From: Luteibacter sp. dw_328
GTDB taxonomy: Bacteria; Pseudomonadota; Gammaproteobacteria; Xanthomonadales; Rhodanobacteraceae
DNA length: 64,000 nt
Direction of reading: 5' to 3'
Assembly (NCBI RefSeq): GCF_018449605.1
Contig: NZ_JAAVUW010000001.1
Location: 372,001 to 436,000 of the forward strand
Part shown: positions 15,420 through 19,287 of the stretch, one piece after another
How positions within the stretch are numbered: the stretch's first letter is position 1
How the letters are laid out: the number at the start of each line of letters is the position of its first letter
The notes under the pieces: model-generated
The model's input: only the letters and a program-made list of their open reading frames with translations
What the model was told of the DNA's origin: nothing
Databases searched by the model: none
Program-made: the position numbers and the translations under genes

Positions 15420-17837
15420 ATGGCCGCCTACCTCACATCCCGCCTGACCGACGAGGCGGATTCCGCACTGGCGACTAACCATGACGGAAGCACGCTTGCG
15501 CGGCGACTCAGCGACAAATACAGCGACCGGGTCGCGACGGCCTTCACCGTCTTCGGTCGGGAAGGGCAGTTCGTACCCTTGCCCGACAATCTGCCCGCCG
15601 GCCTGTCGAAGGCACTGACCGCCCACGGTATCGAGCGCCTTTACAGCCACCAGCAGGAGGCCTGGGAAGCCGCCCGCTCGGGCAGTCATGTCCTCGTATC
15701 GACGCCGACCGCCTCGGGCAAGACGCTTTGCTACACGTTGCCGGTGATCGCCTCGGTGCTGGAGGCCGGCGCCAAGGCCTTGTACCTCTTCCCGACGAAG
15801 GCACTCGCCCAGGACCAGGTCGCCGAGTTGCTCGAGTTGAACCGGGCGGGCGACCTCGGCGTCAAGGCCTTCACTTTCGACGGCGACACCCCGGGCGACG
15901 CGCGTCAGGCTATCCGCCTGCACGGCGATGTGGTCGTCAGCAATCCCGACATGCTCCATCAGGCCATTCTTCCGCATCACACGAAGTGGGCACAGTTCTT
16001 CGAAAACCTCCGTTACGTGGTGATCGACGAGATCCATACCTATCGCGGTGTGTTCGGCTCGCACCTCGCCAACGTGTTGCGGCGCCTGAAGCGCATCTGT
16101 GCATTCTACGGGGTGAAACCACAGTTCATCCTGTGCTCGGCCACCATCGGCAACGCTACCGAACATGCCCAGGCCCTGATCGAGGACGAGGTCGCCACCA
16201 TCACGCGCAGCGGTGCGCCGAGCGGCGACAAGCACATCCTTTTGTGGAACCCGCCGGTGATCAACCCGGATCTCGGTCTGCGCGCATCCGCACGGTCGCA
16301 GACCAACCTGATCGCCCGTGTGGCGATCAAGGCGAAGATGAAGACACTGGTGTTCGCGCAGTCGCGGCTGATGGTCGAGGTACTCACCAAATACCTGAAG
16401 GATGTCTTCGATCACGACACGCGACTGCCGGCGCGCATTCGCGCGTACCGTGGCGGATACCTGCCCACCGAGCGGCGCGAGGTGGAGCGTGCGATGCGCG
16501 CGGGCAACGTCGACGGCATCGTGTCCACGTCCGCGCTGGAGCTCGGCGTCGACATCGGCAGCCTCGACGCGGTCGTGCTCAATGGGTATCCGGGCTCGAT
16601 TGCCGCCACGTGGCAGCGATTCGGTCGCGCCGGACGACGCCAGCAGCCGTCGCTCGGCGTGCTGGTCGCCACCAGTGCGCCGCTCGACCAGTACCTTATG
16701 CGACATCCGGCCTTCCTTACCGAGGCGACCCCGGAGCAGGCGCGCATCCAGCCCGACCAGCCGCTGATCCTGCTCGACCACATCCGTTGTGCCGCCTTCG
16801 AACTGCCGTTCGTCGCGGGGGATGCGTTCGGCCCCGATGATGCCGGGCCGTATCTCCAGGTCCTCGCCGAAGCGGAGGTGTTGCACCAGGAAGGCGAGCG
16901 TTGGGAATGGATTGCCGACAGCTACCCGGCCAACGCCGTGAGCCTTCGCTCGGTGGCCGATGGCAATTTCGTCGTCGTCGACCGTACGGAAGGCAGGCAG
17001 ACGATCATCGCCGAGGTGGACTACTCGGCCGCGGCGCTGACGTTGTACGAGGGAGCGATCCACATGATCCAGTCGGTGCCTTACCAGGTCGAAAAACTCG
17101 ACTGGGACGGGCGCAAGGCGTACTGCACGCGCACGCGCGTGGATTACTACACGGATGCCATCGACTACACCAAACTGAAAGAGCTCGAGTGTTTCGACGG
17201 TAGCAAGGCGGGCGAGGGCAGTGCACGTCATGGCGAGGTGCATGTCGTGCGTCGCGTGTCCGGCTACAAGAAGATTCGTTACTACACGCACGAGAACATC
17301 GGCTATGGACCGGTGAACCTGCCCGACCAGGAGCTTCATTCCACCGCCGTCTGGTGGCAGTTGCCGCAGACGGTGCTCGACGAAGCGTTTCGCTCACGCC
17401 AGCACGCGCTCGACGGATTCCTCGGTGCGGCCTATGCGCTGCACACGGCGGCCGTGGTGGCGGTGATGGCTGAGCCGCGCGACCTGCAGAAGGCGGTGGG
17501 TTCGGGCGACGGCGGCTGGTCGGCGCAGGTGGATGCCGCGGGTCGTGGACAGATTCGTGCGCAGGATGGCGGGCTCGCCCTGGCGGACGCGCTCGAGCGC
17601 TTCCTGCCCACCGTCTATCTCTACGACAACTTTCCCGGGGGCGTCGGCCTCAGCGAGCCGTTGTTCCGGCGTGCGCCGGAGCTTGTCACGCATGCACTGG
17701 CCACGATCGAAGGCTGCGAATGCAAGGCTGGCTGCCCCGCCTGCGTCGGCCCCGTGCTCGCCGCTGATGAGAACCGGGAGGAGACGCCGCGCGCACTCGC
17801 CGCGCGCGTGCTACGCCTGCTCGGAGCCGCCGCATGA
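15420..17837 (+). CDS. mrfA: DEAD/DEAH helicase with C-terminal DUF1998, MrfA (YprA) type
   Basis: An 805-residue superfamily 2 DNA helicase. Walker A is STPTASGKT (about residue 95), the DEAD-box variant DEIH is at residues 203-206, the motif III region is LCSATIGNATEHA, and motifs IV-VI run through STSALELGVDIGSLDAVV and QRFGRAGRRQQPS. The C-terminal DUF1998 region carries four Cys at 766, 768, 772 and 775 (GCECKAGCPACVG), a likely metal-binding cluster. This is the layout of B. subtilis MrfA/YprA, which acts with MrfB in repair of mitomycin C damage. The stop overlaps the start of mrfB by four bases, as expected for that pair. Confidence 0.88.
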   Translation: MAAYLTSRLTDEADSALATNHDGSTLARRLSDKYSDRVATAFTVFGREGQFVPLPDNLPAGLSKALTAHGIERLYSHQQEAWEAARSGSHVLVSTPTASGKTLCYTLPVIASVLEAGAKALYLFPTKALAQDQVAELLELNRAGDLGVKAFTFDGDTPGDARQAIRLHGDVVVSNPDMLHQAILPHHTKWAQFFENLRYVVIDEIHTYRGVFGSHLANVLRRLKRICAFYGVKPQFILCSATIGNATEHAQALIEDEVATITRSGAPSGDKHILLWNPPVINPDLGLRASARSQTNLIARVAIKAKMKTLVFAQSRLMVEVLTKYLKDVFDHDTRLPARIRAYRGGYLPTERREVERAMRAGNVDGIVSTSALELGVDIGSLDAVVLNGYPGSIAATWQRFGRAGRRQQPSLGVLVATSAPLDQYLMRHPAFLTEATPEQARIQPDQPLILLDHIRCAAFELPFVAGDAFGPDDAGPYLQVLAEAEVLHQEGERWEWIADSYPANAVSLRSVADGNFVVVDRTEGRQTIIAEVDYSAAALTLYEGAIHMIQSVPYQVEKLDWDGRKAYCTRTRVDYYTDAIDYTKLKELECFDGSKAGEGSARHGEVHVVRRVSGYKKIRYYTHENIGYGPVNLPDQELHSTAVWWQLPQTVLDEAFRSRQHALDGFLGAAYALHTAAVVAVMAEPRDLQKAVGSGDGGWSAQVDAAGRGQIRAQDGGLALADALERFLPTVYLYDNFPGGVGLSEPLFRRAPELVTHALATIEGCECKAGCPACVGPVLAADENREETPRALAARVLRLLGAAA

Positions 17838-18787
17838 GCGACCTCGCCTCGAGACTGGCCGCCCTCCGTAAGCAGGCCGGCGGCCGATCTCCAGCTTCTG
17901 TAGGAGCCGATTCATCGGCGAACCAACCCGGCCTCAGTCCGAACAAGGTCGGCCCCGCTCCGCCGGAATCGCCGATGAATCGGCTCCTACAGAAGCCTGG
18001 CGTCGACCTGGCGGCCCTGCGCCGGATGGCGGGGGTGCGCGAGCGCCTCGGCCAGCCGCGCATGCCACCACGCACCTTTAGCCGTGACGTCCCCGGCGAG
18101 GAGATCGCCCCTGGTCTGCGCTACCTCGAGCAGCGCTACGCGTGGCCCGATGCGCCGTCCGAACTCGATCTCACGTTCGCTCGCCTCACCAGCGCGCGTC
18201 GCGAACACGTGCTGCATTTCGATACCGAAACCACGGGGCTCGCCGGCGGCACCGGCACACGCGCCTTCATGATCGGTGCGGCCGACTGGCACGATGGCGG
18301 CTTGCGCGTACGCCAGCTCTACATAACCACCATGGCGGCGGAAAGCGCCATGTTGCGATCGTTCGCCGACTGGATCGACGCCGACACGGTGCTGGTCAGT
18401 TACAACGGAAAATCCTACGACGCGCCACTGCTCGCGACGCGTTATCGGCTCGCTCGCATGACGAATCCACTCACCGGGCTGACGCATGTCGATCTGCTGC
18501 ACCCCGTGCGCCGCCGATACCGCCAGGTGTGGGAGAACTGCAAGATGCAGACGGCGGAACGAAACCTGCTGCGCATCGTGCGCGAAGACGATCTGCCGGG
18601 ATCGGAAGCACCGCGGGCATGGCTCACGTATCTTCGCGGCGGGTCGTCAGGGGATCTCGTGCGCGTCGCTGCACACAACCTGCAGGACGTGCGCAGCCTC
18701 AGCGGCCTGCTCGTCGAGGCGCACGGTTGGGCCGCGCTGGATGCACGGCATGCGCAGGAAGGTTCGCTGCACGGTAACGAAAAATAG
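17834..18787 (+). CDS. mrfB: RNase H-like exonuclease, MrfB (YprB) type, with in-frame REP insertion
   Basis: A 317-residue DEDD-type nuclease domain protein. The first catalytic motif is HFDTETTGLAGGTGT (Asp130, Glu132), followed by LVSYNGKSYDAPLLATRYRL, HVDLLHPVRRRYRQ and VAAHNLQDVRSLSGLL, matching the YprB ribonuclease H-like domain; MrfB is the exonuclease partner of MrfA. The long TPR tail of the Bacillus protein is absent. Residues 23-53 (VGADSSAN through PMNRLLQ) are encoded by an inverted pair of REP elements inserted in frame in the N-terminal linker ahead of the nuclease domain. It overlaps mrfA by ATGA. Confidence 0.85.
   Translation: MSDLASRLAALRKQAGGRSPASVGADSSANQPGLSPNKVGPAPPESPMNRLLQKPGVDLAALRRMAGVRERLGQPRMPPRTFSRDVPGEEIAPGLRYLEQRYAWPDAPSELDLTFARLTSARREHVLHFDTETTGLAGGTGTRAFMIGAADWHDGGLRVRQLYITTMAAESAMLRSFADWIDADTVLVSYNGKSYDAPLLATRYRLARMTNPLTGLTHVDLLHPVRRRYRQVWENCKMQTAERNLLRIVREDDLPGSEAPRAWLTYLRGGSSGDLVRVAAHNLQDVRSLSGLLVEAHGWAALDARHAQEGSLHGNEK
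17900..17990. repeat. REP pair (BIME) inside mrfB coding sequence
   Basis: Forward core at 17900-17922 and inverse core at 17968-17990, with outer flanks CCAGCTTCTG and AGAAGCCTGG continuing the inverted repeat. The 91-base block is read in frame and codes residues 23-53 of MrfB. Confidence 0.9.
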
Positions 18788-18844: not shown

Positions 18845-19003
18845 ATGAGCGAGGCGACCAAACCCTGCGATCACGACGGGTGCAACTGCCAGGTCCCGGT
18901 GTCGCGTGACTTCTGCAGCGAAAGTTGCCGCATGGCGGCCGAAAGCCAGAACGTGGGTGGCGCCTGCGAGTGCGGCCATGCGGCCTGCCAACAGCGGCGC
19001 TGA
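18845..19003 (+). CDS. Small bacterial metallothionein-like protein
   Basis: A 52-residue protein starting MSEATKPCDHDGCNCQVPVS with eight Cys (8, 13, 15, 24, 28, 41, 43, 48) and two His. The spacing CNC near the start, FCSESC in the middle and GGACECGHAAC at the end resembles the bacterial metallothionein family of SmtA (which has YYCSEAC and GCGHTGC at matching places). Such proteins bind zinc, cadmium or copper in the cytoplasm. AAGGAGG at 18831-18837 is an excellent ribosome-binding site seven bases before the ATG. A small hydrophilic protein gene follows after 23 bases. The gene is easily missed because of its length. Confidence 0.8.
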   Translation: MSEATKPCDHDGCNCQVPVSRDFCSESCRMAAESQNVGGACECGHAACQQRR

Positions 19004-19026
19004 CGACGATACGCGAGGAGTACAAC

Positions 19027-19173
19027 ATGACCGACGAAAAGAAACAGCCGACGTCCGGCTACCGCGAAGAGAATCTCAAGCCGTCGCAGGGAAAGCCAAA
19101 GGTGCCCGGCGAAGGCCATCCGAAGGAATCTCAGAATAATCCCAACCAGAAGCCCGGCAAGCAGGGCTCCTGA
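19027..19173 (+). CDS. Small hydrophilic, disordered protein
   Basis: A 48-residue protein starting MTDEKKQPTSGYREENLKPS and ending NNPNQKPGKQGS, rich in Lys, Pro, Gly, Asn and Gln, with no hydrophobic core, so probably disordered. GAGGAG at 19015-19020 is a strong site six bases before ATG 19027. It follows the metallothionein-like gene by 23 bases and is probably co-transcribed with it. Function unknown. Confidence 0.65.
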   Translation: MTDEKKQPTSGYREENLKPSQGKPKVPGEGHPKESQNNPNQKPGKQGS

Positions 19174-19183
19174 TGGTGACAGG

Positions 19184-19231
19184 CAAATATGGGAGCCGCC
19201 AAATGTGGGAGCCGCCAAATGTGGGAGCCGC
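19184..19231 (+). repeat. Three tandem 16-base repeats
   Basis: Three consecutive copies of CAAATRTGGGAGCCGC (19184-19199, 19200-19215, 19216-19231); the first differs by one base. The last copy runs straight into a GTGGGAGCC-type REP hairpin, so these are stepped duplications of the REP head. Confidence 0.8.
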
Positions 19232-19287
19232 TTCAGCGGCGATAGCCAGGGTGCCGCACCCCCATCGCCGGCATAGCCGGCTCCCAC
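19221..19287. repeat. Variant REP pair (GTGGGAGCCGCTTCAGCGGC type)
   Basis: Forward core GTGGGAGCCGCTTCAGCGGC at 19221-19243 and an inverse variant ending CCGGCTCCCAC at 19264-19287. The stem sequence differs from the GATTCATCGGC family found elsewhere in the window. It lies between convergent genes. Confidence 0.75.

Follow-up and report, generated by a model that had tools for sequence, protein, structure and literature searches.

In the window, which is the whole 64,000-nt stretch of Luteibacter DNA analysed here (contig C1:372001-436000 of the 5.05-Mb genome G000), the mrfB gene contains a head-to-head pair of GTAG-type REPs, a REPIN-like element, that is very probably translated in frame within a predicted disordered tether of the MrfB protein and tolerated there. 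The best reading of the mrfB linker is that of a tolerated, recurrently occupied site.

The mrfA-mrfB locus and its in-frame REP pair

mrfB adjoins mrfA, an overlapping upstream gene that encodes a MrfA Zn-binding domain and whose stop overlaps the mrfB start at 17834 (Table 1). The window protein shares its DEDDh exonuclease core with Bacillus subtilis MrfB (PDB 8UN9): this structure was the top-ranked Foldseek match, the core matched it with E 3.2e-25, and residues D130, E132, D196, H281 and D285, aligned to 8UN9, were invariant in 70 sequences. Pfam detected no TPR family, so the window MrfB is a MrfB-type exonuclease without the C-terminal TPR part of the B. subtilis protein.

Table 1. Features of the mrfA-mrfB locus in window coordinates
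Feature	Position	Strand	Description
mrfA	15420..17837	+	DEAD/DEAH helicase with MrfA Zn-binding (MZB) domain
mrfB	17834..18787	+	317-aa DEDDh exonuclease, RNase_H_2 domain at residues 128-293
Conserved N-terminal motif MSDLASRLAALRKQAG	17834..17881	+	Predicted helix 3-14
Linker, residues 17-61	17882..18016	+	pLDDT <50 at residues 22-46 and 48-53
Left REP arm	17894..17921	+	Core 17900-17921, exact core match
Spacer between REPs	17922..17968	+	47 nt; right end resembles rarer spacer type
Right REP arm	17969..17996	-	Core 17969-17990, exact core match; holds Met48 ATG (17975-17977)
Second conserved motif LRRMAGVR	18017..18040	+	Precedes exonuclease core

An earlier note on this DNA had described an inverted REP pair lying wholly within the mrfB frame. 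This description held: both cores are exact, the ORF runs through both arms, and the pair encodes residues 23-53 as they had been translated; the true arms extend beyond the cores (Table 1). The arms, 28 nt each and 47 nt apart, are 100% complementary, and a GTAG-type tag plus short palindrome (GTAGGAGCCGATTCATCGGCGA) is present in both. A chance inverted repeat was rejected, since 14 core matches with up to three mismatches lie in the window versus 0.00 expected and the REP stretch folds as RNA at -80.1 kcal/mol (z -9.7). The core GTRGGAGCCGATTCATCGGCGA (starting with GTA or GTG) occurs in 446 copies in G000 (reversed control 0), or 622 when the CTTCAG subtype and mixed forms are included. 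Head-to-head doublets are usual on C1, where 33 of 46 neighbouring pairs are plus-minus, and the right-end spacer type of the mrfB pair had a sole other match in the 1.19 Mb of G000 searched, the pair at C1 462603-462688. A further pair (GTGGGAGCCGCTTCAGCGGCGA type plus a GCCGGC variant) lies at 19221-19287 of the window, 3' of ORF 18925-19173. Elsewhere, a RAYT-like (Y1_Tnp) gene at L201:1402-1890 is followed 33 nt behind by a REP pair (1924-1992), a probable REPtron, and six REPs of one orientation form a tandem array with 101-nt spacing at C11:734557-735083 of G004.

The mrfB copy departs from its family in placement. Our survey of G000 covered ~1.19 Mb of the 5.05 Mb, with gene calls on C1 only. 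Called coding DNA makes up 84% of this contig. Of its 117 REP-like sites, 96 were intergenic, 14 lay within called genes and 7 at edges, so that REPs here are mostly intergenic, in line with the earlier note. At least 4 of the 14 inside-gene matches are chance matches to the loose pattern, and the two mrfB cores were counted as one intergenic and one edge because the caller starts mrfB at Met48. The mrfB pair breaks the extragenic habit: it is a stop-free palindromic repeat in frame within a conserved protein gene.

As had been proposed, the pair occupies the linker that precedes the nuclease domain; it contains no stop and seems to be tolerated. The idea that a 91-base insertion had kept the frame stood in part: the frame is open, but 91 is not divisible by three. 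Likewise, residues 23-53 are REP-coded, yet the net gain is probably below 31 residues, because orthologous linkers without a recognised REP measure 19-40 residues (12 loci) versus 45 in the window MrfB; no REP-free mrfB allele of the window species was found. The expectation that the same peptides would turn up wherever such elements are translated was borne out, as the predicted peptides VGADSSA, VGAASAA, SPMNRLL and SPLKRLL recur in other G000 genes.

Is the pair translated at all? If the N-terminus had been misread, translation would start at Met48, in the right REP arm, or at Met66, and the REPs would be 5' non-coding DNA between mrfA and mrfB. Existing annotation points that way: four of the first seven database matches start with the MN of a REP peptide, P0001 at Met48 itself and P0005, P0006 and P0007 with an MNRL-like start known from the protein entries alone, and a simple codon-based gene caller also put the start at 17975 (Met48). 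The accessible text of Di Nocera et al. 2013 (PMC3733652) warns that N-terminal intragenic REPs are often misannotated. Nevertheless, we consider a downstream start highly improbable. The first 16 residues belong to a motif that Luteibacter retains throughout and that can be recognised in Rhodanobacter, Lysobacter, Luteimonas and others, and the pattern MSDLASRLAALRxQAG is conserved with and without REPs, across genera. All 106 loci that could be judged have an open frame from this motif to the nuclease despite varied linker length and REP orientation (104 by regular expression, two variant motifs by eye); the survey comprised 110 loci (30 + 80, several genomes twice), of which two were cut by a contig end and two had no match to the nuclease expression. 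Codons 2-16 gave a pN/pS of 0.40 in the ten REP-bearing loci and 0.26 in the 12 others, ratios by which purifying selection on the motif is moderate.

A GGAG lies 7 nt before the ATG at 17834, and the Met48 codon sits in the hairpin stem. Because a Met48 start would fall within a -80 kcal/mol stem and lose the conserved motif, we take it to be an annotation artefact. Thus the conserved motif, the open frame in all judgeable loci and a hairpin that would bury the alternative start favour the start at 17834 as far as sequence can show, and gene callers seem to be misled by REPs at the MrfB N-terminus. A suspected broken gene in G015 was rejected: the flagged TAG is a normal stop at residue 306.

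Linker REPs across Luteibacter and genomic REP load

The earlier note had entertained a one-off hit. This was rejected, as REPs occupy the linker in several Luteibacter species; REPs of different sequence are found at this place in the sister species G006 and in other Luteibacter MrfBs, and the species-level relatives examined do not have the same 31 residues. Closer to the window, the near-identical protein P0001, which differs from the window protein at 2 of 270 residues, has the same REP-arm residues at its start; the element thus occurs elsewhere in the species and is not unique to one isolate.

Twenty-two of 23 genomes of the genus gave an mrfB locus (G014 gave none). Linker REPs were recognised by regular expression in nine of them (L031, L032, L033, L034, L037, L039, L042, L043 and L050), and inspection by eye added a degenerate pair in L044, for a total of ten. 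Twelve loci have no recognised linker REP. Between relatives, these REPs vary in orientation, number, reading frame and family. Their order is plus-minus in L031 and L032, plus-plus-minus in L033 and minus-plus in L034, L037, L042, L043 and L044, and a second stem family, GTAGGAGCGCGC...GCGCGCGA, forms a pair in L039 and a single REP in L050. The linkers hold 18 REPs in 2,403 bp (reversed control 0). By comparison, none was found in 31,408 bp of mrfA (reversed control 1) or in 1,056 bp of N-motif (reversed control 0), and the remaining 16,647 bp of mrfB contained one chance-like match (reversed control 2), giving densities of 7.5/kb in the linker versus 0.02/kb in other mrfAB coding DNA. Downstream DNA contained 19 in 32,712 bp (reversed control 2). 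The linker averages 49 residues with REPs versus 26 without (Mann-Whitney p 0.001, for species that are not independent).

A tree built from mrfA and the linker-free part of mrfB requires at least seven changes between presence and absence of a linker REP, or six if L044 is dropped or called empty, and these changes may be gains or losses. In this tree, 13 of 23 inner branches are well supported and 7 are drawn open, and the four Rhodanobacter outgroups are labelled empty, two of them carrying another repeat. Alternatively, a single insertion dating from the origin of the genus could later have been inverted, shortened or lost, with no recurrent colonisation. The junctions CGCAGGAA-TCGCC and GGCGATGGGTGCTCGC are common to several lineages, and G000 and G006 both have the plus-minus order; junctions shared in this way imply that some elements are probably old, and retention of an old insertion followed by losses could explain part of the recurrence. 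As an account of the whole pattern, a single ancient insertion is very unlikely, given the number of changes on the tree, the occupation of the linker by two stem families (GCCG and GCGCGC) and, in the exact cases, a REP subtype that matches each genome's own REP population.

Linker occupation indeed follows the genome's own REP population. Exact type-1 counts in 21 genomes were 995 in G006, 661 in G010, 622 in G000, 314 in G004, 248 in G022, 117 in G021, 53 in G002, 6 in G015, 3 in G017 and zero in twelve, and the five highest counts belong to just those genomes whose linker holds an exact type-1 core (G000, G006, G010, G004 and G022). Same-stem variant cores occupy the linkers of G021, G015 and G019; with these variants, the eight genomes have counts of 995, 661, 622, 314, 248, 117, 6 and 0 (G019), and counts in the remaining 13 are 53, 3 and zeros. 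A rank test of linker type-1 REPs against genome count gave p 0.0002 for the exact set and 0.0003 with the three variants, among related species that are not independent. No exact type-1 copy of the G019 linker variant was found in the G019 genome.

Subtypes behaved similarly. The GATTCATC subtype has 446 copies in G000, 475 in G006 and 420 in G010 and is present in their linkers; it has none in the G004 and G022 genomes and is absent from their linkers, whose REPs belong to the non-GATTCATC subtype. Type-2 linker REPs were present in G011 (274 genomic type-2 copies) and G018 (1,318). Load is not sufficient, however, since no type-2 linker REP was seen in type-2-rich genomes: G001 (639), G017 (717), G003 (178), G013 (181), G019 (171), G016 (133) and G004 (106). 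Five of these (G001, G017, G003, G013 and G016), as well as G002 with its 53 type-1 copies, are REP-rich and have no recognised linker REP.

Placement of the element and other intragenic REPs

Why this linker? AlphaFold2 modelling (70 sequences) gave pLDDT >90 in most core blocks and predicts the linker to be disordered; the low-pLDDT stretch (Table 1) is almost exactly the REP-coded part of MrfB. In B. subtilis, the available part of PMC11194089 describes an AlphaFold-Multimer model in which an unstructured MrfB N-terminus wraps MrfA and docks an N-terminal helix, and the window MrfB resembles it in having a predicted unstructured N-terminus with a helix. By analogy, the conserved N-terminal motif is possibly a MrfA-docking helix and the linker a tether, which would tolerate insertions. 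The window MrfB differs from its B. subtilis counterpart in its length of 317 aa, in the missing Pfam TPR and in the REP-coded insert of the tether.

Genomic placement may contribute as well. Of the 58 REP clusters on C1 that neighbour the 3' end of a gene, 46 are no more than 60 nt from a stop codon; convergent gene pairs flank 28 clusters and divergent pairs 4, even though there are more divergent gaps (143) than convergent ones (67). From the mrfA stop to the start of the mrfB element is 56 nt, and the overlap of the two genes makes the linker the first tolerant DNA that follows this stop. The same placement, together with the very stable fold, would also suit a hairpin under selection as a signal in mRNA or DNA where mrfA meets mrfB, one that stabilises mrfA mRNA and damps mrfB translation, with translation of the element incidental. 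Between G004 and G022, the arms differ at 0 of 44 positions and the rest of the linker at 9 of 148, in the direction expected of such a signal but not significantly so (Fisher p 0.12). We regard a selected signal as unlikely: the twelve of 22 Luteibacter loci without a recognised linker REP, the single, partnerless REP of L050 and the variation in REP orientation and spacing all speak against it.

With a translated and tolerated pair as the preferred reading, the following mechanism may be envisaged. RAYT-driven copying would supply REPs, a RAYT-like gene being the mover that the literature suggests, and most insertions into coding DNA would be purged. Between the N-terminal helix and the nuclease core, the tether would accept varied extra residues while the frame stays open, and elements could thus survive, decay and be replaced there; the preference of REPs for sites just behind stops would favour the linker next to the mrfA stop. 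It might further be imagined that the tether is a safe harbour rewritten by each genome's REPs and that its length or sequence tunes MrfA-MrfB coupling, linking REP activity to DNA-repair capacity, but we give this little credence.

REPs also lie within other genes. In 1.2 Mb of G010, 168 of 191 REPs were intergenic, 7 were at edges and 16 were within genes. These 16 are spread over 10 called genes, whose products include an FdhE-like protein, a heme-oxygenase-like protein (within the domain match), FecR, PKS/NRPS and ferrochelatase (at the N-terminus). In G000, the in-frame carriers that could be named, apart from mrfB, encode a GH35 beta-galactosidase, a FecR-type regulator and PKS/NRPS proteins; in LpxK and a protein lacking any Pfam match, the REPs are at the C-terminus. 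A general preference of in-frame REPs for repair genes was not seen in the surveyed part of G000. The GH35 gene (C1:255624-257528; L153:15624-17528) has an in-frame REP at residues 535-542, between two C-terminal domains, and its G006 and G010 orthologues have a REP pair at that place. Twelve GH35 loci were aligned and two dropped (wrong frame read); the site bears REPs in 3 of the 10 usable orthologues, all of the G000/G006/G010 clade, so that repeated occupation looks stronger in mrfB than in this one comparison gene. In FecR-type regulators, two in-frame REPs (94-116) lie between DUF4880 and FecR in G000 (C1:882066-883223) and three in G010 (C1:3812009-3813232). One PKS/NRPS gene of G000 (C1:966542-973213) has an in-frame REP pair between domains and one REP within the AMP-binding match span, and another (C1:835872-867914) also has in-frame REPs. 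REP occupation at the FecR and PKS/NRPS sites is common to G000 and G010.

Outside Luteibacter, some mrfB linkers of Pseudoxanthomonas and Rhodanobacter (L079, L082, L084, L094, L115, L128, L134 and L138) contain other dispersed repeats, some of low copy. In Rhodanobacter the repeat is CTGAGCGTAGCGNAGCGAAGTCGAAGGGC, with 4 to 9 matches per genome at up to two mismatches in four genomes (control 0), the mrfB copy itself being among the matches in two of the four. The Pseudoxanthomonas repeat is weaker (1 to 4 matches per genome in five genomes, one with the mrfB copy only), and a linker repeat with 4 matches in one Lysobacteraceae genome is a thinner case than Rhodanobacter.

Relation to known elements and significance

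The phenomenon itself is known. In the part of Di Nocera et al. 2013 open to us (PMC3733652), GTAG REPs, mostly dimers, are reported in frame in genes that include the DNA-repair genes uvrA, recB, DNA polymerase I and dnaE2, flexible linkers are proposed as REP-tolerant sites, and recB of X. campestris and X. oryzae carries a REP at about the same site. The mrfB pair resembles those intragenic elements, which retain the family name, in being GTAG-tagged palindromes in frame in a repair gene. It also resembles the REPINs of Pseudomonas fluorescens SBW25, which the excerpted text of PMC3116915 presents as inverted REP doublets with a spacer, high copy number, a predicted hairpin and a mostly extragenic location (14 16-mers overlap genes; the most abundant occur 1,067 times), and differs from them in lying within an open, conserved reading frame. 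PMC3733652 also treats the Rickettsia palindromic elements (RPE), likewise in-frame palindromic repeats in many protein genes; the mrfB case involves another repeat family and organism, and one linker that is repeatedly occupied.

In-frame GTAG REPs, their repair-gene examples, the flexible-linker idea and the two-species recB site are therefore already published. MrfB, YprB and Luteibacter have 0 occurrences in the main text of PMC3733652, and genus-wide repeated occupation of one linker following REP load is not described in the portion of that paper available. A search of titles and abstract openings, with subscription journals thinly covered, found no literature on REPs in mrfB or Luteibacter among the papers listed. 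This suggests that the repeated, load-following occupation of the mrfB linker is new, no printed account having been found, and the mrfB linker seems to illustrate a known phenomenon with unusual clarity.

The finding points to a systematic annotation error, in which the start of MrfB entries is placed within a REP arm, so that the conserved N-terminal helix is missing. It also makes testable a published question, whether repair genes are REP-tagged fortuitously or not. With one linker, many species, two REP families and REP-free relatives, mrfB offers a replicated natural experiment in how mobile palindromes become protein.
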